NCBI GenBank assembly: GCA_025451675.1
Contig: JANWJZ010000023.1
Span: 1 to 64,000 of the forward strand
Length of the DNA: 64,000 nucleotides
Direction of reading: 5' to 3'
Origin: Halanaerobiales bacterium
Lineage (GTDB): Bacteria; Bacillota; Halanaerobiia; Halanaerobiales; DTU029
Shown: positions 14,690-64,000 of the stretch, piece after piece
How positions within the stretch are numbered: position 1 is the stretch's first letter
Layout of the letters: each line of letters opens with the position of its first letter
Position numbers and translations under genes: made by a program
Notes under the pieces: model-generated
The model's input: the letters and a program-made list of their open reading frames with translations, nothing else
What the model was told of the DNA's origin: nothing
The model's database searches: none

Positions 14690-15284
14690 TAATCCCCGTT
14701 TTGAAATCAGTGCCTATAGCAGCAAAGATTTTCCTGTCCATAATAATCCGGAGGTTGCTTTTTCTGGCCGCTCCAATGTAGGGAAGTCCTCCATGATCAA
14801 TAAGCTGGTAAATAGCAATAAACTGGCCAGAACCAGTTCCCAACCAGGGAGAACCCAGAGCATAAATTTTTATAATATAGATGATCGATTTTATCTTGTA
14901 GATCTCCCTGGTTATGGTTTTGCCAAAGTCCCGAAGAAATTGAAAGAAAAATGGTCTGTCTTAATTGACGATTACCTACATAATAGAGAAAACCTTGCCG
15001 GAATAATACAGATTGTTGATGCCCGTCATAAACCTTCCCGGGAGGACCAGATGATGGTTAACTGGCTGCTGGAAACCGGGATACCTACATTAATCGTGGC
15101 TACAAAGGTTGATAAGATTTCACGTGGCCAGTGGGCAAAACAGGAAAAAATGATTAAGGAAACACTTGCTTTGAGGCCAGATATTCCTTTCTGTTTTTTT
15201 TCAGCTAAAACCGGTGAGGGTTTAAAAACGGTAGAAAATTTTATCAGTGATATTATTGATAAAAAAAGGATGTCAGTGCAATGA
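14679..15284 (+). CDS. engB: GTP-binding protein EngB/YsxC (ribosome biogenesis)
   Basis: [43 protein letters not shown] 14679 overlaps the lon stop by 11 nt. Confidence 0.93.
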
Positions 15285-16105
15285 AAAATAAGGCGTATAC
15301 ATCCTCATTTGCCAGCATCTATGATGATGTCATGGGTACGGTACCTTACCAGGTGTGGTATGACTATTTGAAGGAGATTTTGGACTATTACCAGCTTGAA
15401 GCCAGAAAAGTACTGGATCTGGCCTGTGGTACTGGGAATATGAGTCTTTTGTTTGCCCGGGATAATTACCAGGTTACGGGAGTGGATCGTTCCAGTGGCA
15501 TGCTGGAGGTAGCGAAGCAGAAAGCCAGGGAAGAAGAGCTGGAGATCAATTTTATTGAAGCGGATTTATGTTCTTTTCAGCTGGAAGAAAAATTTGATCT
15601 GGCTATCTCCCTTTTCGATAGTTTAAATTATATCCTGCAACTGGAGGATTTAAAAAAGGTATTTAAGAATGTATTTGACTCCCTCAGAGATGGTGGTATT
15701 TTCATCTTTGATGTAAATACCCTGAGCAGATTGATGAGTATTGAACCAGGAACAACTATATTAAATGGAGAAGATTATACCTGTATCTGGGAAGATATTG
15801 TCAATGAAGAAAAAAAGCTCTGGCAGGTAAAACTAAAGATATACCATAAAGATACAGGAGAGTATCATGAAGAATTCCATCAGGAAAAGGGGTATAAAAT
15901 TGCGGATTTGAAGGGAGCCTTAAAGGAAGCTGAATTTGAGGATATCGCTGTTTTTAATGCCTATACATTTACTGAAGCCACTGATAATGATAACAGAATT
16001 TATTTTGTTGCTTTAAAGAACAGGAAAAGGTCAGCAGAAAGACCAGTACTCCGTTCAGTCAAAAATCTGAAATGGGGTATTAAAAGATTTATAAATGGAT
16101 TGTAA
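15281..16105 (+). CDS. Class I SAM-dependent methyltransferase
   Basis: VLDLACGTGNMSLLFARDNYQVTGVDRSSGML. Confidence 0.88.
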   Translation: MKNKAYTSSFASIYDDVMGTVPYQVWYDYLKEILDYYQLEARKVLDLACGTGNMSLLFARDNYQVTGVDRSSGMLEVAKQKAREEELEINFIEADLCSFQLEEKFDLAISLFDSLNYILQLEDLKKVFKNVFDSLRDGGIFIFDVNTLSRLMSIEPGTTILNGEDYTCIWEDIVNEEKKLWQVKLKIYHKDTGEYHEEFHQEKGYKIADLKGALKEAEFEDIAVFNAYTFTEATDNDNRIYFVALKNRKRSAERPVLRSVKNLKWGIKRFINGL

Positions 16106-16594: not shown

Positions 16595-18361
16595 TTATAC
16601 CTTTTGGATTGGCTTTACCACTTTCCCTAAAGCTTCCTTTTTTCCCTTTTTCCTGGGCCAGAGGATTTTTTTCAGCCAGGGCAGCAGGTAATAGTCTGCA
16701 CTTAAAGCCCGGCCAGCCCCTATAAGGGCGATAGAACTGAATAACCACCAGGGTAATGTAGGATTAGATGGATAGAATCCGGAAAGGAAGAAGTTAATGG
16801 TCATAAAGGTAGAACCAAGAGCGGCCAGGGGTGTAAGGATTCCCAGGGTAAGGGCAATACCCAAGGCCAGTTCACCCAGGGTTATCATATATTGAAATAA
16901 TAAAGCATTGGGAAAGACCACTGCTTCCATAAAATCTACATACCAGCCAACCGGATTGGGGCCAATTGGTGAAGTGGAAGCACCGGCAACCAGCTTATCC
17001 CCATAGACAAGCCAGCCGCTATATACTTTATCTATTCCGGATTTAAGCCATTGTATACCAAGGAAGATACGTAAAATGGCGAAGAAGATTGAATACCCCC
17101 TATGAGTGGCATGGCCAAGTATCCGGGCAGCAAATCCCTCGCCTTTGCCCTGTCTTTCCATGTAGTTCAGGGAGTATCTTATTCCATTTTTGAGTCCACC
17201 GATTCCAAGTAGATAGTGGATATTAACCATATGTTTCATAAAAATGGCTGGCCAGCCCCTGAGGGAGATTCCCATCAGATTGGCGATGCCGTATCTGCCG
17301 CCAATGGAGACCATGATACCATGTAACCTGGGATTAATTTCTTCTTTTGTTCTTCCATTTATATCTGCCGCAATATTTATGGCGGCAGTTTTACCGGTTT
17401 GCAGGGCTGCTTCTACCAGTGCCGGCAGGATTTTTTTATCATGCCAGGGTGTTGCAGCATTATCACCGATGGCATAAACCTCCGGGTAATCCAGGGTCTG
17501 TAAATACTCATTTACTTTTATCCGTCCATTTTTTTCACTTTTTAATTCCAGACTGCTGGCAATTTCAGAGGCACTTATGCCGCAATTCCAGATAACTGTT
17601 CTACAGGCAATCTCTTCGCCACTATCCAGGATCAGGCTATTTCCTTTTACTTCTTTTACAAAGGAACCTGTCTTTAGCTTGACCCCTCTTTTTTTCAGAT
17701 AGTCACTGGCTCTTTCGGCCAGCCGTCTCTCGAAATTGGGCAGGATTTGTTCCAGCCCTTCCACCAGATAGAGTTCTACATCTTCTCTGGGTATCTCATA
17801 CTGGTCACAGAGCTTGTCTATCCATTCCAGTAATTCACCTGTCATTTCCACCCCGGTGAATCCTCCGCCACAGACAGCAAAACTCAATAATTCCTTTCTG
17901 CTTTCCGTATCCCTGGCCAGCCTGGCTTCCTGAAAACAATTCTGGATATGTTTATTTATTCTTTCCGCATCTTTCAGAGACCAGAGGGTAAAGGCGTTTT
18001 CACTGATGCCCTTTACTCCGCAGTCACTTGGTTTGCTGCCTGTTGCCAGGATCAAATAATCATAATTATATTCATAGTTATCAGATCTCAGGGTTTTTTC
18101 AGCAAAATTGATTCCAGTTATATAATCTTCAATTACATTTACCCTGGTAGAAGCAAAGAGCTCATCCAGGCTTATCTGAACACCTTCACAGTCAATTCTG
18201 TTTCCTGCTACTTCATGGATTCCGCTTAATAGAATATGGTAAGGGTTATTGTTTATTAGTGTAATTGTCACATCATAATTATCTTTAAGTAACCTGTTGA
18301 GAGTTTTTGCTGCTTCTATGCCTCCATATCCTGCTCCCAGAACTATGATATTTTTTCCCAT
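16595..18361 (-). CDS. Type II NADH dehydrogenase (NDH-2)-like FAD oxidoreductase with C-terminal DoxX-like membrane domain
   Basis: N-terminal GAGYGGIEAAKTL, AVCGGGFTGVEMTGEL, VYAIGDNA; C-terminal about 150 aa with LRIFLGIQWLKSGIDKVYSGW...MITLGELALGIALTLGILTPLAALGSTFMTINFFLSG typical of DoxX. Confidence 0.88.
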   Translation of the reverse strand: MGKNIIVLGAGYGGIEAAKTLNRLLKDNYDVTITLINNNPYHILLSGIHEVAGNRIDCEGVQISLDELFASTRVNVIEDYITGINFAEKTLRSDNYEYNYDYLILATGSKPSDCGVKGISENAFTLWSLKDAERINKHIQNCFQEARLARDTESRKELLSFAVCGGGFTGVEMTGELLEWIDKLCDQYEIPREDVELYLVEGLEQILPNFERRLAERASDYLKKRGVKLKTGSFVKEVKGNSLILDSGEEIACRTVIWNCGISASEIASSLELKSEKNGRIKVNEYLQTLDYPEVYAIGDNAATPWHDKKILPALVEAALQTGKTAAINIAADINGRTKEEINPRLHGIMVSIGGRYGIANLMGISLRGWPAIFMKHMVNIHYLLGIGGLKNGIRYSLNYMERQGKGEGFAARILGHATHRGYSIFFAILRIFLGIQWLKSGIDKVYSGWLVYGDKLVAGASTSPIGPNPVGWYVDFMEAVVFPNALLFQYMITLGELALGIALTLGILTPLAALGSTFMTINFFLSGFYPSNPTLPWWLFSSIALIGAGRALSADYYLLPWLKKILWPRKKGKKEALGKVVKPIQKV

Positions 18362-18436
18362 ATTGCGACCTCCTTAAGGCTTATTATTTCCTACTAAGTT
18401 ATTTTTTAATATGTAAAAGTATGTTTTTGAAAAATA

Positions 18437-18454
18437 TTGTTATATATTGCACAA
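18437..18454. promoter_or_regulatory. Rex-like operator candidate
   Basis: 18-bp TTGTTATATATTGCACAA; ends TTGT/ACAA with the overall spacing of Rex sites (TTGTGAA-N4-TTCACAA). Confidence 0.45.
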
Positions 18455-18458
18455 CTTA

Positions 18459-18486
18459 ATTATATCAGAATAATAACTATTTGCAA
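18459..18486 (-). promoter_or_regulatory. Predicted promoter of the ndh-2 gene
   Basis: Minus strand TTGCAA, 16-nt spacer, TATAAT. Confidence 0.55.
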
Positions 18487-18504
18487 CAAAAATTCGAAAA
18501 TAAA

Positions 18505-18533
18505 TTGACGGATGTAATAAAATATTATATAAT
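18505..18533 (+). promoter_or_regulatory. Predicted promoter of the FMN-binding protein gene
   Basis: TTGACG, 17-nt spacer, TATAAT. Confidence 0.65.
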
Positions 18534-18640
18534 ATTAAATCATAAAGAATAAGAAATAGTGTACCTAACTAACAAAACATGTTAGAGTTTTCACTATTAA
18601 AATCTTTTGTTAATTAATATTAGAAAGGGAGGCGTTATTA

Positions 18641-19312
18641 GTGAAAAGAATTTTTTTAATGACTGTAGCTATTTTTTTAGTATCAAGTTTACTTATTTTT
18701 GCTGCTGATTATAAGGATGGGCTCTATATAGGAGTGGTACCTGGTAGAGATGTTACTGTGGTAGAAGTAGGTATTACCAATGGTATTATCGTAGAGGTAA
18801 ATATTGTTTCGCCCGTTAAACTGGAGGCTACATATAATTTTGGCCCCGGTATTGATGCCTTTATTGAATATCCAGGAAAGGTACTGGCCCAGCAGAATAC
18901 AGAAATTGACGCAGTTGCCGGAGCTACTGGCAGCTATCAGGATTACAACAAGGCAGTACAGATGGCCCTGGATATAGCCAGTGGTAAATATAAGGGCAAC
19001 AAATATTATGGTTTAGCTAAAGATTTTGCCCACGGCCATGTTTTGATCGAGATTACTGTTGAAGGTAAGAAGGTAACTGATCTGCAGTTTATAACCAATG
19101 ATAGCGGCAGCAACAGAGTTACTTTAATGGGACCCAAAAATGAAAGCTATCCATATGGCCCTGCAAGAGAATTGTTTAGTTCTTTCAAGGATAAAGCTCT
19201 AGCAGCCATCGCAGCAGGTAAAAATGAGGTAGATGTAGTCACTGGAGCTACTTCCAGTTCCCATAGCTTTAATGCGGCTTTAAAACATGCCTTGAGCCAG
19301 GCTGGTTTATAA
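18641..19312 (+). CDS. Exported protein with two FMN-binding (FMN_bind) domains
   Basis: Signal peptide, no lipobox Cys; two flavinylation-like motifs, DAVAGATGS and DVVTGATSSS. Confidence 0.85.
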   Translation: MKRIFLMTVAIFLVSSLLIFAADYKDGLYIGVVPGRDVTVVEVGITNGIIVEVNIVSPVKLEATYNFGPGIDAFIEYPGKVLAQQNTEIDAVAGATGSYQDYNKAVQMALDIASGKYKGNKYYGLAKDFAHGHVLIEITVEGKKVTDLQFITNDSGSNRVTLMGPKNESYPYGPARELFSSFKDKALAAIAAGKNEVDVVTGATSSSHSFNAALKHALSQAGL

Positions 19313-19340
19313 AGACTATTAATTTTATATCACAGATAAG

Positions 19341-19363
19341 AGCCCCTTTAAAGGGGCTTTTGT
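19341..19363 (+). terminator. Rho-independent-like terminator/attenuator between FMN_bind gene and apbE
   Basis: Perfect palindrome agcccctttaaaggggct followed by tttgtttt. Confidence 0.75.
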
Positions 19364-19436
19364 TTTAATTGACATAATTTCTATTATCTTTTATACTTAA
19401 GTTGGTTAAAATACTTAACAGGCCAGGTGTTAAATT

Positions 19437-20501
19437 ATGAAAAGAAAAAATAACTACCCAGTATTTGTAATACTGCTTTTTATTATTTTAATGATCGCTT
19501 TCTTCCGTTCTGGTTCTCCGCAATATAATTTAAAAAAGATGACGGAGAAAACCAGAACAAATTTTTTAATGAATACACTGGTACAGATCAGAGTCTACGG
19601 TGAAGATCCGGACAGGGTTATTGACAGATCCTTTGAACGGATACAGAATATAGAGGAAATGATGAGCAGGACTCTTGCCGGCAGTGATATTTACAGGATT
19701 AATGAAAACAGTTCTTCCAGTGAATTTATTCCTGTTAATCCTGATACATTTAAAGTTCTGGAAAGAGCCTTGTTTTTTGCTGAGCTGACAGGGGGGAAAT
19801 TTGACCCTACTATCGGTCCATTGGTTGAATTATGGGGCATAGGTACTGCTGATGCCCGGGTACCAACAGAAGAAGAAGTAAAAGAAGCATTATCCCTGGT
19901 TGATTATAGGAAACTTATACTGAACCCCGGAGACAATGGTGTAAAATTATTGCTGGAAGGAATGAAACTGGATTTAGGAGGTATAGCCAAGGGCTTTGCT
20001 GCCGATGAAGTTAAGAAGATTTTAAAGGAAGAGGGCATAGAGAGTGCCTATATTAATCTTGGCGGTAATGTAATGCTTGTTGGCGGCAAGCCTGATGGAA
20101 GTCCCTGGAAAATAGGCATACAGGATCCCCGTTTTAACAGGGGTAATGTAATGGCCAGTATTGAATTAGAGGACAAGACTATTGTTACCTCCGGAAATTA
20201 TGAGCGTTATTTTGAGGAAGATGGAGTTATCTATCATCATATCCTGGATCCGGAGACAGGTTATCCAGCCAGTAGTGGTATAATAAGTGTCAGTATTATC
20301 TGTGATAGCTCTCTTGATGCTGATGCGCTTTCCACCAGTGTCTTTATCCTGGGGATGGAAAAAGGGCTGGAATTGATTAATCAGTTAGAAGGCTATGAGG
20401 CTATTATCATTACTGATGATCTGGGAATAGTATTAACGGAAGGCTTAAAAGGTAAAGTTACCTTATTAAATAAAGATTTTTACTTCCTGGGAAGTGATTA
20501 G
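19437..20501 (+). CDS. apbE: FAD:protein FMN transferase (ApbE family), membrane-anchored
   Basis: N-terminal TM; LDLGGIAKGFAADEV; AYINLGGNVMLVGGKPDGSPWKIGIQDPR; HHILDPETGYPA; DADALSTSVFILG. Confidence 0.93.
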   Translation: MKRKNNYPVFVILLFIILMIAFFRSGSPQYNLKKMTEKTRTNFLMNTLVQIRVYGEDPDRVIDRSFERIQNIEEMMSRTLAGSDIYRINENSSSSEFIPVNPDTFKVLERALFFAELTGGKFDPTIGPLVELWGIGTADARVPTEEEVKEALSLVDYRKLILNPGDNGVKLLLEGMKLDLGGIAKGFAADEVKKILKEEGIESAYINLGGNVMLVGGKPDGSPWKIGIQDPRFNRGNVMASIELEDKTIVTSGNYERYFEEDGVIYHHILDPETGYPASSGIISVSIICDSSLDADALSTSVFILGMEKGLELINQLEGYEAIIITDDLGIVLTEGLKGKVTLLNKDFYFLGSD

Positions 20502-21452
20502 ATGGAGAGGTTTGCAGCATTAATTGAGAAAATAGACGCTTTTATGGTAAATTACTGTAAATCCACCAGTTTGATTCTTGATACGGCAGTAAAGGATTTG
20601 CTCTATGGTGGCGGTAAGAGGTTAAGGCCTATTATGGTAATGTTGGCCGGCAGCTTTGGCGACTATGATGAGGACAGGCTGCTTCGTATTGCTGCCGGTA
20701 TAGAGCTTTTGCATATGGCTACACTGGTCCATGATGATATAATAGATGAAGCCAGGCTGCGGAGAGGCAGGATAACCGCCCAGGAGAAGTTTGGCAATGA
20801 TGTTGCTGTTTTTGTTGGAGATTTTCTATTAACAAAATCCTATAGCTTATTTGTTGACAATCTTTCTCAACACAGTCTTGTTAAACTCAACAAAGTTGTA
20901 AAAATGGTCTGTATAGGTGAGATCAGGCAATATGAAGAGAAGTACGACCTGGATCTGAGTTTAATAGATTATTTTAAAAGGATCAGAAGGAAGACAGCCT
21001 TACTTTTTGCCATTAGTGCTTACATTGGTGCCTATGAAGCAGGTGTCCGGGGAAAAAGGTTATTTCAACTTTATAAATTTGCCCTTGAGATGGGGATGGC
21101 TTTCCAGATCCAGGATGATATACTGGACTTTATTGGAGATGAAGATACTACTGGCAAAGAAATTAACCAGGATCTTGCGTCCGGTATTTATACATTGCCT
21201 GTTATCTGCCTGCTGAAAGATGAAAGGTATAGCAGCAGAACCAGAAATATATTAGGCAAAAAGGATATTTCCCGGCAGGATATAGCTGTATTAAAAGAGA
21301 TGTTTAAGGAAAGTAATGTACTGGAAACTAGCAGAACATATGTAAAGAAGTTTCTGGATAGGGCAATTGATTATCTTAAATATTTACCGGATATTGAAGC
21401 CAAAAAAGATTTTCAATTTATTTTGAACCTGCAACTCCAACGAAAGGCATAA
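20502..21452 (+). CDS. Polyprenyl (heptaprenyl-type) diphosphate synthase
   Basis: GGGKRLRPIMVMLAG; first DDxxD-type motif LVHDDIIDEARLRRG; second FQIQDDILDFIGD. Confidence 0.9.
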   Translation: MERFAALIEKIDAFMVNYCKSTSLILDTAVKDLLYGGGKRLRPIMVMLAGSFGDYDEDRLLRIAAGIELLHMATLVHDDIIDEARLRRGRITAQEKFGNDVAVFVGDFLLTKSYSLFVDNLSQHSLVKLNKVVKMVCIGEIRQYEEKYDLDLSLIDYFKRIRRKTALLFAISAYIGAYEAGVRGKRLFQLYKFALEMGMAFQIQDDILDFIGDEDTTGKEINQDLASGIYTLPVICLLKDERYSSRTRNILGKKDISRQDIAVLKEMFKESNVLETSRTYVKKFLDRAIDYLKYLPDIEAKKDFQFILNLQLQRKA

Positions 21453-22781: not shown

Positions 22782-23300
22782 ATGAAAAAAGCAAAAGTAA
22801 TGAATTTGGCAATGCTTGTCTTATTGTTGACTCTTTTTAGTTTTGTTTCAACTATCGAGGCAAAAACATCAGAACAGAAACAAGGTGGAGTTTTAAGAAT
22901 TGTATATGGTGATGCGATTAATTGCATAGGATATCCGGGGGGAATAGCATCATTCCAGGAACATCAAGTTGCTGAACCTGCTGTTGAGACCCTGGGAAGA
23001 TATGATGAGACAGGTGCTCTTGTTCCCTATCTGGCCAGGGATTTTAAATTGGATGCAGACTCATTAACATTGACTATTTATTTGCGCGACGGTGTTAAAT
23101 TCCATGATGGAACTATCTGTGATGCCGAAGCAGTAAAATGGAACCTGGAAGAATTCAAGGCATCTGGCCGTAATGAAATAGATGATGTTACCAGCATAGA
23201 GGTTGTTGATCCTTTAACATTGGTTCTTCACTTATCGAAATGGAATAATTCCATTGCAGATGCAGTTCTTTTTACCGTCCATTTATACAATTACTGCTAA
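22782..23300 (+). pseudogene. Truncated ABC transporter solute-binding protein (family 5), N-terminal third only
   Basis: Signal peptide then GGVLRIVYGDAINCIGYPGG...LGRYDETGALVPYLARDFKLDADSLTLTIYLRDGVKFHDGTICDAEAVKWNLE, ending abruptly at about 160 aa; full-length members are about 500 aa. Confidence 0.8.
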
Positions 23301-50074: not shown

Positions 50075-50971
50075 CTATATAAATCTGCTGATAATTAAGC
50101 TTATAACCATGGAAAGGCCGAATATGGCGTTCAGACTTGCCATTTTATGTACAATGCCTGTCAAATCTTTGCTTTCTCTCGCAGAATGTACTGTTTTAAT
50201 TCTGTTTAGAGCCAGGGGAATAGTCAAAAAGACCAGAGAGGCCCAATAAGGTAAGAGTTTATAAACTATTAATATACCCAGGGAGATATAGGCTGAGCCA
50301 ATGAGAAAATAATAATAATACCTGGCTGCTTCAAATCCCATGATTACCGGGGCTGTGAAAAGACCTTTTTTCTTGTCATTTTCATAATCCCTTAATTCAT
50401 TGGAATGCTGCATCCCTGTTATGAGAAAACTGACCGGTATGCCAACCCAGACTGGATACCAGCTCTGAATACCTGTCTGAATGTAATATATGCCCCAGAC
50501 CATCACAATTCCCATCCAGAGAAAAATGGATGGCCCGCCAAGGCCGTAATATTTATAGCTGATGGGTTTGGCTGTATAAAAAAAGCCAGCCAGGGCACCA
50601 ATACTACCAATAATAAAGATAATCCAGCCACGGTAGAGAGATAGGACTATTCCAAATGGGATACTGGCAAGGAAACAAATAATTCCTGTCCGGTAAATTT
50701 CTCCTATGCTGATTATATCTTTTACTTTATTGTAAGTGCTTAAATAATCATTATCAATCCCCAAAATGTAATCATAATAATCATTGATCAGGTTAGTACC
50801 GGTGTGGATTAGAATTAGAGGAATCATACTTAAAAGATGAAGTTTATGATTAAAACTACCATGGTAAAAAGCCAGGGCAGCACCGACACTGGTTGATACA
50901 AGTGTAGTAACAAAACCATGAGGTCTTATAGCGATAGCCCAGGCTTTTATTTTGCTTAATTTGCTTTTCAT
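50075..50971 (-). CDS. UbiA-family prenyltransferase (MenA-like)
   Basis: IRPHGFVTTLVSTSVGAALAFYHG, NLINDYYDYILGID, SNELRDYENDKKKG; about eight TM segments. Confidence 0.88.
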   Translation of the reverse strand: MKSKLSKIKAWAIAIRPHGFVTTLVSTSVGAALAFYHGSFNHKLHLLSMIPLILIHTGTNLINDYYDYILGIDNDYLSTYNKVKDIISIGEIYRTGIICFLASIPFGIVLSLYRGWIIFIIGSIGALAGFFYTAKPISYKYYGLGGPSIFLWMGIVMVWGIYYIQTGIQSWYPVWVGIPVSFLITGMQHSNELRDYENDKKKGLFTAPVIMGFEAARYYYYFLIGSAYISLGILIVYKLLPYWASLVFLTIPLALNRIKTVHSARESKDLTGIVHKMASLNAIFGLSMVISLIISRFI

Positions 50972-52723: not shown

Positions 52724-52818
52724 TTAGTTTGCCCTTTACCTGACTATTAAATTTTGCTATAATGTATAAAAAATATGTCTTGTATCCCTTAGGGGAACGA
52801 GAACAGGAGGGAACTAAA

Positions 52819-53409
52819 GTGAAGAGTGTACTGCGAAACACCAGGAGCATGACTATACTTGCTGTTATGCTCGCCATTACCATTATACTGGATGTCACCC
52901 CATTGGGGGCTATACCGTTGGGGAGTATCAGTGCGACTATTCTACACATTCCCACAATCATTACAGCACTTATTGTAGGGCCCGTAGCGGGTTTGATAAT
53001 GGGGGCATTATTGGGTTTTGTTACCCTTATCCATGCCCTGACCAGACCGGTTACCCCTCTGGATCCATTATTCATTAATCCCCTGGTTTCTGTTTTGCCA
53101 CGGATGTTTATAGGGGTAGTGGCCTACTATGTATATGTAGGAGTCAAGAAATTATTCAGGAAAGACCGGGCCGGTGAAACAGTTAGCACCCTGCTTGCCG
53201 GTGCAGCAGGTAGTTTAACCAATACTGCTCTGGTATTTCTAATGCTCTATCTGGTTTATGCCCAACGTGTAGTGGAGATTGTGGGGGCAGCTTTCAATGT
53301 TATTATCCTGTCGGTCTTTACGACAAATGCCATTGCCGAAGCAGTGGTTTCTGCCATAATCACTGCGGCTATTGTGGTTGCCTTTAATAATTATAGCAGG
53401 AAAAAGTAG
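52819..53409 (+). CDS. ECF transporter S component, substrate undetermined
   Basis: GSISATILHIPTIITALIVGPVAGLIMGALLGFVTLIHALT; GTG 52819 after RBS caggaggg. Confidence 0.82.
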   Translation: MKSVLRNTRSMTILAVMLAITIILDVTPLGAIPLGSISATILHIPTIITALIVGPVAGLIMGALLGFVTLIHALTRPVTPLDPLFINPLVSVLPRMFIGVVAYYVYVGVKKLFRKDRAGETVSTLLAGAAGSLTNTALVFLMLYLVYAQRVVEIVGAAFNVIILSVFTTNAIAEAVVSAIITAAIVVAFNNYSRKK

Positions 53410-62659: not shown

Positions 62660-62773
62660 TTGTTTTTGCCCCTTACATATATTATAATAAGTTATAGTTA
62701 TTGTTTTTATTTTCGACAAATAAATTTGTCATTTTAGATAAAATTGTATTTAAAATAAAGAGGGGTGAAAGCG

Positions 62774-64000
62774 TTGCGAGCTTTAACTTTTAAGCAGGGT
62801 ATTTATCTGGAAGAAAATAAAAGTCTGACCAGTGATAAACCCTTGAAAAAAGCCAACAGGCCTGCACAGGTAATAATTCCAATGCAGCAACATATAGGCG
62901 TTCCCTGCAAACCTTTGGTAAAAAGAGGAGACCATGTTGAGATGGGAGAAAAGATAGGTGATATAGATGGCTTTATCTCTGCCCCCATTCATTCTTCAGT
63001 CTCCGGTACGGTCAAAGAGATCAGGACAGTTTTGACGCCGGAAGGGAAACTATGTGAAGCTGTAGTCATTGAGGCTGACCCGGAGGACAGGCTGGCTGAA
63101 GGGATTAGTGTAAAAGGAGACCTGGAAGATTTAAATCCGGATGAGATTATAGATATAATCAGGGAAGCAGGTATAGTAGGCATGGGCGGGGCCACGTTTC
63201 CTACTCATGCTAAATTGAGAATACCTGAAGGAAAGAAAGCGGAATACCTTATTATTAATGGTGCAGAATGTGAACCTTTTCTCACGGGAGATTATAGATT
63301 GATGCTGGAGCGTCCCGAAGATATAGTATACGGGATGAAAGCACTTATGAAAGCCATCGGGGCTGAAAAGGGTATAATCGGTATTGAAGACAATAAAGCT
63401 GATGCCATTGAAACATTGCAAAGGGCTATTGACGGAGAAAACAATATTGAAATAAAGAAATTAATAACAAAATATCCCCAGGGCGGCGAGAGGATGCTGA
63501 TTAAGGCTATCCTCAATAGAGAGGTGCCGGCAAAAGGTTTGCCTATTGATGTGGGTGTGATAGTGAATAATATAGCAACAGCAGTGGCAGTGGCAGATGC
63601 CATAAAGAAAGGAATGCCTTTAATTGAACGTTCGGTTACCATATCAGGCCCTGGCGTAAATGAACCTGTAAATTTAATTTTCCGGATTGGTACTCCTATT
63701 GAAGAACTGCTGGCAGAGGCGGGAGGATTAACTGCTGATGCAGCAAAAGTGATTATAGGTGGGCCGATGACAGGTTGTGCCCAGCCTCATCTGGAAATAT
63801 CAGCTACAAAAGGGACAACAGGTATTATTGTTTTAACGGAAAATGAAGTGGAAGCTTTTGATCCACAGCCCTGTATCCGTTGTGCCCGCTGTGTTGATGC
63901 CTGTCCAGAGTTGCTCATGCCATTGAATCTTGCCAGATATGCTGAGCATGGCATGCTGGAACAACTGGAAAAATATCAGGTGCTCAGCTGTATAGAATGC
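62774..64000 (+). CDS. rnfC: Electron transport complex subunit RnfC (3' truncated by window)
   Basis: TTG start; IVGMGGATFPTHAKL, YLIINGAECEPFLTGDYRLMLERPEDIVYG, VVNNIATAVAVADAI-type region, CIRCARCVDACPELLMP. Open to the window end and absent from the ORF track. Confidence 0.93.
   Translation, partial: MRALTFKQGIYLEENKSLTSDKPLKKANRPAQVIIPMQQHIGVPCKPLVKRGDHVEMGEKIGDIDGFISAPIHSSVSGTVKEIRTVLTPEGKLCEAVVIEADPEDRLAEGISVKGDLEDLNPDEIIDIIREAGIVGMGGATFPTHAKLRIPEGKKAEYLIINGAECEPFLTGDYRLMLERPEDIVYGMKALMKAIGAEKGIIGIEDNKADAIETLQRAIDGENNIEIKKLITKYPQGGERMLIKAILNREVPAKGLPIDVGVIVNNIATAVAVADAIKKGMPLIERSVTISGPGVNEPVNLIFRIGTPIEELLAEAGGLTADAAKVIIGGPMTGCAQPHLEISATKGTTGIIVLTENEVEAFDPQPCIRCARCVDACPELLMPLNLARYAEHGMLEQLEKYQVLSCIEC

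Follow-up and report, generated by a model that had tools for sequence, protein, structure and literature searches.

A putative NADH-disposal module with covalent flavins and salvaged naphthoquinone in the diderm order Halanaerobiales

Analysis of a 64,000-nucleotide stretch of the genome of a Halanaerobiales bacterium (assembly GCA_025451675.1, contig JANWJZ010000023.1, positions 1 to 64,000; hereafter, the window) showed the presence of a cluster of four genes, encoding a type II NADH dehydrogenase (NDH-2) fused to a DoxX membrane domain (NDH2-DoxX), a secreted two-domain FMN_bind protein (FMN2), the flavin adenine dinucleotide (FAD):protein flavin mononucleotide (FMN) transferase ApbE and a polyprenyl diphosphate synthase (PPS). 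The cluster probably represents an electron-export module of a diderm fermenter, which would dispose of NADH via salvaged naphthoquinone to covalent flavins in the periplasm. This type of system is known; in the best reading, it works like the system of Listeria, but as a diderm, precursor-salvaging variant. The source assembly comprises 2.03 Mb in 90 contigs and is 90% complete. Conservation was analyzed in 38 genomes of the order Halanaerobiales, to which all distribution data refer, and gene neighbourhoods were examined for all 23 genomes with NDH2-DoxX. The four genes were confirmed as open reading frames at the positions and on the strands given in a preliminary description of the sequence, each with strong domain support.

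Gene ndh2-DoxX (16595–18361, minus strand) encodes a protein of 588 amino acids, identified by Pfam, phmmer and AlphaFold. Pyr_redox_2, DoxX (34.2 vs. 23.6) and DoxD match it above the curated Pfam cut-offs, and hydrophobic helices at the C-terminus provide the NDH-2 with a transmembrane extension. Its solved relatives are the NDH-2 of Caldalkalibacillus thermarum and Staphylococcus aureus (phmmer, 4nwz, E 5e-62), and the AlphaFold model superposes on the enzyme of C. thermarum over approximately 395 residues (TM-score 0.90 of the target).

The gene for FMN2 (18641–19312, plus strand, GTG start, 223 amino acids) was characterized by Pfam, alignment and AlphaFold. FMN_bind matches the protein above the curated cut-off in two stretches, containing the motifs DAVAGAT (T96) and DVVTGAT (T204), and the N-terminus resembles a secretion signal with no lipobox Cys. 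The structure prediction proposed in the preliminary description yielded two alpha/beta domains (AlphaFold confidence, pLDDT, 88), matching the solved flavinylated domains 8p2a/8p2b with a probability of 1.00, though with E of 0.002–0.02; a sequence search of the Protein Data Bank with FMN2 gave no match. The flavinylation motif is D-x-x-[S/T]-G-A-[S/T], with a minimum length of seven residues (PMC12052999). The second site, DVVTGAT, fits it exactly; all ten orthologues have the acceptor Thr of the first site (T96), and T204 is present in nine, the exception being G015, where the FMN2 gene is located elsewhere in the genome. By the heptad rule, FMN2 is a predicted acceptor of covalent FMN from ApbE.

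An outer membrane with lipopolysaccharide (LPS) is a trait of Halanaerobiales, a diderm lineage (PMC5007114), and a gene for 3-deoxy-D-manno-octulosonate (Kdo) transferase was found in the host genome on contig C59, approximately 4 kb upstream of the gene for a PplA-like lipoprotein considered below. Accordingly, the secreted two-flavin protein should be periplasmic, which fits better than an extracellular location. The cluster had been described as an extracellular/periplasmic module; an NDH-2, flavinylation and quinone module agrees with the data, but an extracellular location is unproven in a diderm host.

Gene apbE (19437–20501, plus strand) encodes a protein of 354 amino acids with an N-terminal hydrophobic membrane anchor (Pfam, 327.9 bits) and the conserved motifs KGFAAD and DALST. 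Its closest solved relative is the FAD:protein FMN transferase 7esa (E 1.5e-80), which we take to be FmnB of Listeria. As previously noted, neither FMN2 nor ApbE of the window contains a lipobox Cys; however, a lipobox-like N-terminal Cys occurs in 6 of 11 ApbE orthologues, so its absence from the window copy is a local change. The start of the PPS gene (20502–21452, plus strand) is the base directly after the stop codon of apbE. It encodes a long-chain trans-prenyl diphosphate synthase of 316 amino acids (Pfam polyprenyl_synt, 210.7 bits), for which the closest NCBIfam model is GerC3_HepT, with 262 bits, under the cut-off of 456.6.

NDH2-DoxX is present in 23 of the 38 genomes. Gene ndh2-DoxX is divergent from nearby genes apbE-PPS in 21 of these, belonging to five families; in G019 two frames lie between them. 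In the other two, G020 and G022, the contig ends at this point, and the split contigs of G022 are compatible with the quartet order. The full quartet, with the FMN2 gene between ndh2 and apbE, was found in eight genomes of the families f1, f3, f5 and f7. The conserved core is ndh2-apbE-PPS, and the two-flavin protein is a variable member. In Halothermothrix orenii (L107), the genes form the run FMN2-apbE-PPS-ubiD-mqnP-ubiX.

That four housekeeping genes became neighbours by chance is very improbable. Every gene family involved is common, and most copies of the cluster share a lon-ysxC-methyltransferase locus, so the adjacency could partly be inherited with this locus. Family f7 (L111, L112), however, has all four genes together at another chromosomal locus, which indicates that the linkage is selected; the stop-to-start junction of apbE and PPS and the extension of the H. 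orenii run into ubiD-mqnP-ubiX also stand against chance.

The late steps of naphthoquinone synthesis are represented in the window by gene menA (50075–50971, minus strand), encoding a 1,4-dihydroxy-2-naphthoate prenyltransferase of the UbiA family (TIGR00751, 111.9 bits, cut-off 102.15), located 29 kb from the cluster; its orthologues are 66–85% identical across family f1 and H. orenii. A second MenA-like prenyltransferase of the UbiA family, approximately 29% identical to MenA of the window, is encoded on contig C67 (L121:7664-8614). MenB was not found above the TIGR01929 cut-off in any of the 38 genomes, with no match in the host genome, and no convincing MqnA or MqnD (PF02621) was detected in the same genomes, where partial matches did not exceed 27.5 bits; control genomes were matched in both searches. 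A weak PF02621 match on contig C71 was rejected as MqnA/D, being an NMT1-like substrate-binding protein of an ATP-binding cassette (ABC) transporter, and the methyltransferase at 15281–16105 is not supported as MenG, since UbiE models gave 50–55 bits, far under the cut-off.

Genes for the final steps of the futalosine pathway, namely, an MqnP-like prenyltransferase, menaquinone decarboxylase UbiD (TIGR03701, 677 bits, over the cut-off of 495.9) and UbiX, are located immediately after the module in H. orenii, while the upstream MqnA and MqnD of the full pathway were not found in these genomes. An operon UbiD-MqnP-UbiX, followed by genes for an NMT1-like binding protein and an ABC permease, was also found in two Halanaerobium genomes (L147:8684-13473 and L148:5357-10078); the binding protein and permease are a candidate uptake system for naphthoquinone precursors. 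A UbiA-family enzyme is encoded in 23/23 genomes with NDH2-DoxX vs. 9/15 others (Fisher p 0.0018, with no adjustment for relatedness).

As the genomes contain late genes but revealed no de novo pathway, dihydroxynaphthoate salvage is the simplest reading: naphthoquinone would be made from scavenged dihydroxynaphthoate, probably taken from neighbours. The dedicated demethylmenaquinone branch of the Listeria-type system, cited in the preliminary description, has counterparts here in PPS and the UbiA-type MenA but would rely on a scavenged precursor. Such a mode of life has precedent in the quinone auxotroph Lactiplantibacillus plantarum, which contained menaquinones MK-6 and MK-7 after growth with 1,4-dihydroxy-2-naphthoate (DHNA) and used exogenous quinones for extracellular electron transfer (EET) (PMC10746273). 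According to a 2026 survey, quinone pathways are lacking in many fermentative lineages; its main text does not mention the order (PMC13386864).

The Rnf operon begins with the gene for RnfC (62765–64000, plus strand), which runs off the window, and continues on the same contig, with the RnfG gene immediately to the right (L001:1267-2187; G000:C23:65061-65981). Three FMN_bind proteins are encoded in the host genome: FMN2, RnfG and the PplA-like lipoprotein on contig C59. Since the apbE of the cluster is the only one detected in this 90%-complete genome, its product probably also serves Rnf, as suggested earlier; RnfG is the other expected client. RnfG carries a Thr-rich tail of approximately 128 amino acids with a seven-residue repeat, in which four heptads match D-x-x-[S/T]-G-A-[S/T] exactly (shuffles of the same composition gave an expectation of 0.06, although the repeat units are not independent). 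Seven-residue tags suffice for labelling by ApbE, best at protein ends (PMC12052999), and the tail could therefore carry several covalent FMN. A tail of this kind also occurs in RnfG of the congener G002, where the assembly has a gap within the repeats; RnfG of H. orenii and G004 has no Thr-rich heptad tail.

It is rather unlikely that the cluster serves mainly the maturation of Rnf and redox balance, with ApbE chiefly flavinylating RnfG and RnfD, NDH2-DoxX recycling NADH to quinones used elsewhere and FMN2 being a later, unrelated insertion between them. The single ApbE of the host and a core devoid of FMN2 in approximately ten Halanaerobium genomes as well as in G001 and G008 agree with this explanation. 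The position of FMN2 and its acceptor Thr are nevertheless kept over four families, and another ApbE is encoded within the Rnf-eetA-eetB region of H. orenii; the ApbE of the cluster is not a dedicated Rnf enzyme there, which weakens the proposal that it acts solely on Rnf.

Gene eetB (PF07456) was found in all 38 genomes. In the host it forms a pair with a NusG_II gene (EetA-like) on contig C4, and the corresponding pair is located next to the Rnf operon in H. orenii and G004. The lack of eetA and eetB beside the cluster, pointed out previously, is thus confirmed for the locus but not for the genome. EetB of Listeria is a subunit of the FAD exporter, and deletion of eetA there had no EET phenotype (PMC9973259); accordingly, eetAB of contig C4 is not the missing electron carrier. 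The substrate subunit of an energy-coupling factor (ECF) transporter at 52762–53409 was rejected as EetB, as it belongs to PF12822 rather than PF07456.

The PplA-like lipoprotein (L120:5641-6408) has two FMN_bind domains and scores 34.9 bits against the PplA model, the cut-off of which is 325; orthologues were found in G004, G005, G021 and G031. The absence of a lipobox holds for FMN2 of the cluster, but this protein is a lipoprotein version encoded in the same genome. The second motif of the lipoprotein is DLYTNAT, with TNAT instead of TGAT. The neighbouring gene (L120:4242-5432), apparently also present in G005 (L116:7660-8865), encodes a protein of 396 amino acids that matches no NCBIfam model and for which Pfam gave only marginal indications of deoxyhypusine synthase and an ArgZ-like Rossmann fold.

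The flavin-based EET (FLEET) locus of Listeria and L. plantarum contains the genes ndh2, pplA, fmnB (apbE), fmnA, eetA, eetB, dmkA and dmkB. Similar to it, the host genome encodes a membrane-extended NDH-2, a two-site FMN_bind protein, an ApbE-type FMN transferase, DmkA/DmkB-like MenA and PPS, and an EetB subunit, and, as in L. plantarum, no own route to DHNA was found. In contrast to FLEET, the host is diderm, menA is 29 kb away and eetAB lie on another contig; the DoxX fusion of NDH-2 may be a further difference. The flavoprotein adjacent to ndh2 is not a lipoprotein and scores 28.1 bits against the PplA model (NF041941), far under the cut-off, so that PplA is missing from the cluster, and assignment to an unqualified Listeria-type system was rejected on this ground.

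A complete Listeria-type system with scattered genes, in which the PplA-like lipoprotein is the outer carrier, FMN2 an intermediate and electrons are delivered outside the cell, is quite unlikely. The genome does contain the PplA-like lipoprotein, eetA-eetB, MenA, PPS, ApbE and NDH-2. However, both FMN_bind proteins reach only 28–35 bits with the PplA model, the outer membrane is an extra barrier with no known conduit, and a literature search found no EET data for the order.

In a genomic survey, EET clusters are defined by an NADH dehydrogenase (K03885) with a transmembrane helix, no more than five genes from apbE or FMN_bind genes, and a signal peptide (PMC8238504). The cluster resembles these in having an NADH dehydrogenase with a membrane part beside apbE and a signal-peptide FMN_bind protein, and, by its gene order and Pfam domain content, it is a candidate member of this class. 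Halanaerobiales, DoxX and precursor salvage are unmentioned in the main text of this survey. The diderm setting, the DoxX-fusion core with apbE and PPS, and the link with precursor salvage appear to be new in the literature searched, which left out most subscription journals.

In the proposed NADH-disposal module, NDH2-DoxX would oxidize cytosolic NADH and pass electrons through its FAD to an inner-membrane naphthoquinone bearing a prenyl tail. PPS would provide the quinone tail, which MenA would join to externally derived dihydroxynaphthoate, MqnP-UbiD-UbiX presumably acting instead in H. orenii and some Halanaerobium. The EetB-type exporter would supply FAD to ApbE, which would attach FMN to FMN2, RnfG and the PplA-like lipoprotein; pairs of periplasmic FMN would then take electrons from quinol to an acceptor in or beyond the periplasm, for which ferric iron, humics, oxygen and added quinone are candidates.

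Several observations weigh against this module. The DoxX part of the NDH2-DoxX model is of low confidence and poorly rendered. The first heptad of FMN2, DAVAGAT, described as flavinylation-like together with the second, departs from the consensus with Ala for S/T at position 4, though its T96 is invariant, and most Halanaerobium keep ndh2-apbE-PPS without FMN2, which is not obligatory. A MenA-like enzyme is weak or undetected in the NDH2-DoxX genomes G001, G009, G010, G012 and G021, which contain other UbiA proteins only, and a third route to naphthoquinone, outside the Men and futalosine pathways, may exist. The analysis revealed no conduit of multi-haem or outer-membrane type, although no search was aimed at one.

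It is conceivable, as a tentative extension, that flavin-based electron export on quinones not made from scratch is characteristic of the whole order. Dihydroxynaphthoates of either isomer would be imported, DHNA being used by MenA and 1,4-dihydroxy-6-naphthoate by MqnP-UbiD-UbiX with the neighbouring NMT1-type ABC transporter, and electron disposal would depend on the community; in the genus of the window, the RnfG tail may add covalent flavins. If the proposed module is real, the logic of flavin-based electron transfer in Gram-positive Listeria and lactic acid bacteria would extend to a diderm salt-loving lineage, tied to quinone-precursor salvage, and cultivated relatives with these genes, such as H. 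orenii, would be expected to need DHNA or its 6-isomer in order to reduce iron, electrodes or external quinones. This would bear on the redox balance of hypersaline and digester communities hosting such bacteria.

Candidate promoters were found by a consensus scan, in which the count of such sites in the region was not above chance: TTGCAA-16-TATAAT for ndh2-DoxX (18459–18486, minus strand), TTGACG-17-TATAAT for FMN2 (18505–18533, plus strand, 11/12, mostly conserved in congeners) and TTGACA-17-TATACT for apbE-PPS (19369–19397, plus strand, 11/12). Immediately downstream of the -10 hexamer of ndh2 lies a TTGT-N10-ACAA palindrome (18437–18454), with the shape of the box of Rex, an NADH-sensing repressor. 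One more exact match occurs in the window (1.2 expected by shuffling), and the shuffle fraction for the intergenic stretch of the site is 0.016. In three congeners, aligned with a mean column identity of 78%, all 18 bases are invariant and the flanking columns vary; outside the genus, an exact site of this type occurs in the intergenic region of G004 and is conserved in no other genome compared. The palindrome may be a Rex operator, which would open ndh2 at high NADH.

A terminator-like hairpin (19341–19358, plus strand) lies between the genes for FMN2 and ApbE and, together with the promoter following it, suggests that FMN2 may be transcribed separately from apbE-PPS. Downstream of the cluster, a frame of 172 amino acids (22782–23300), judged by eye, has a start similar to an ABC oligopeptide-binding protein and an early stop, and is probably a decayed gene.

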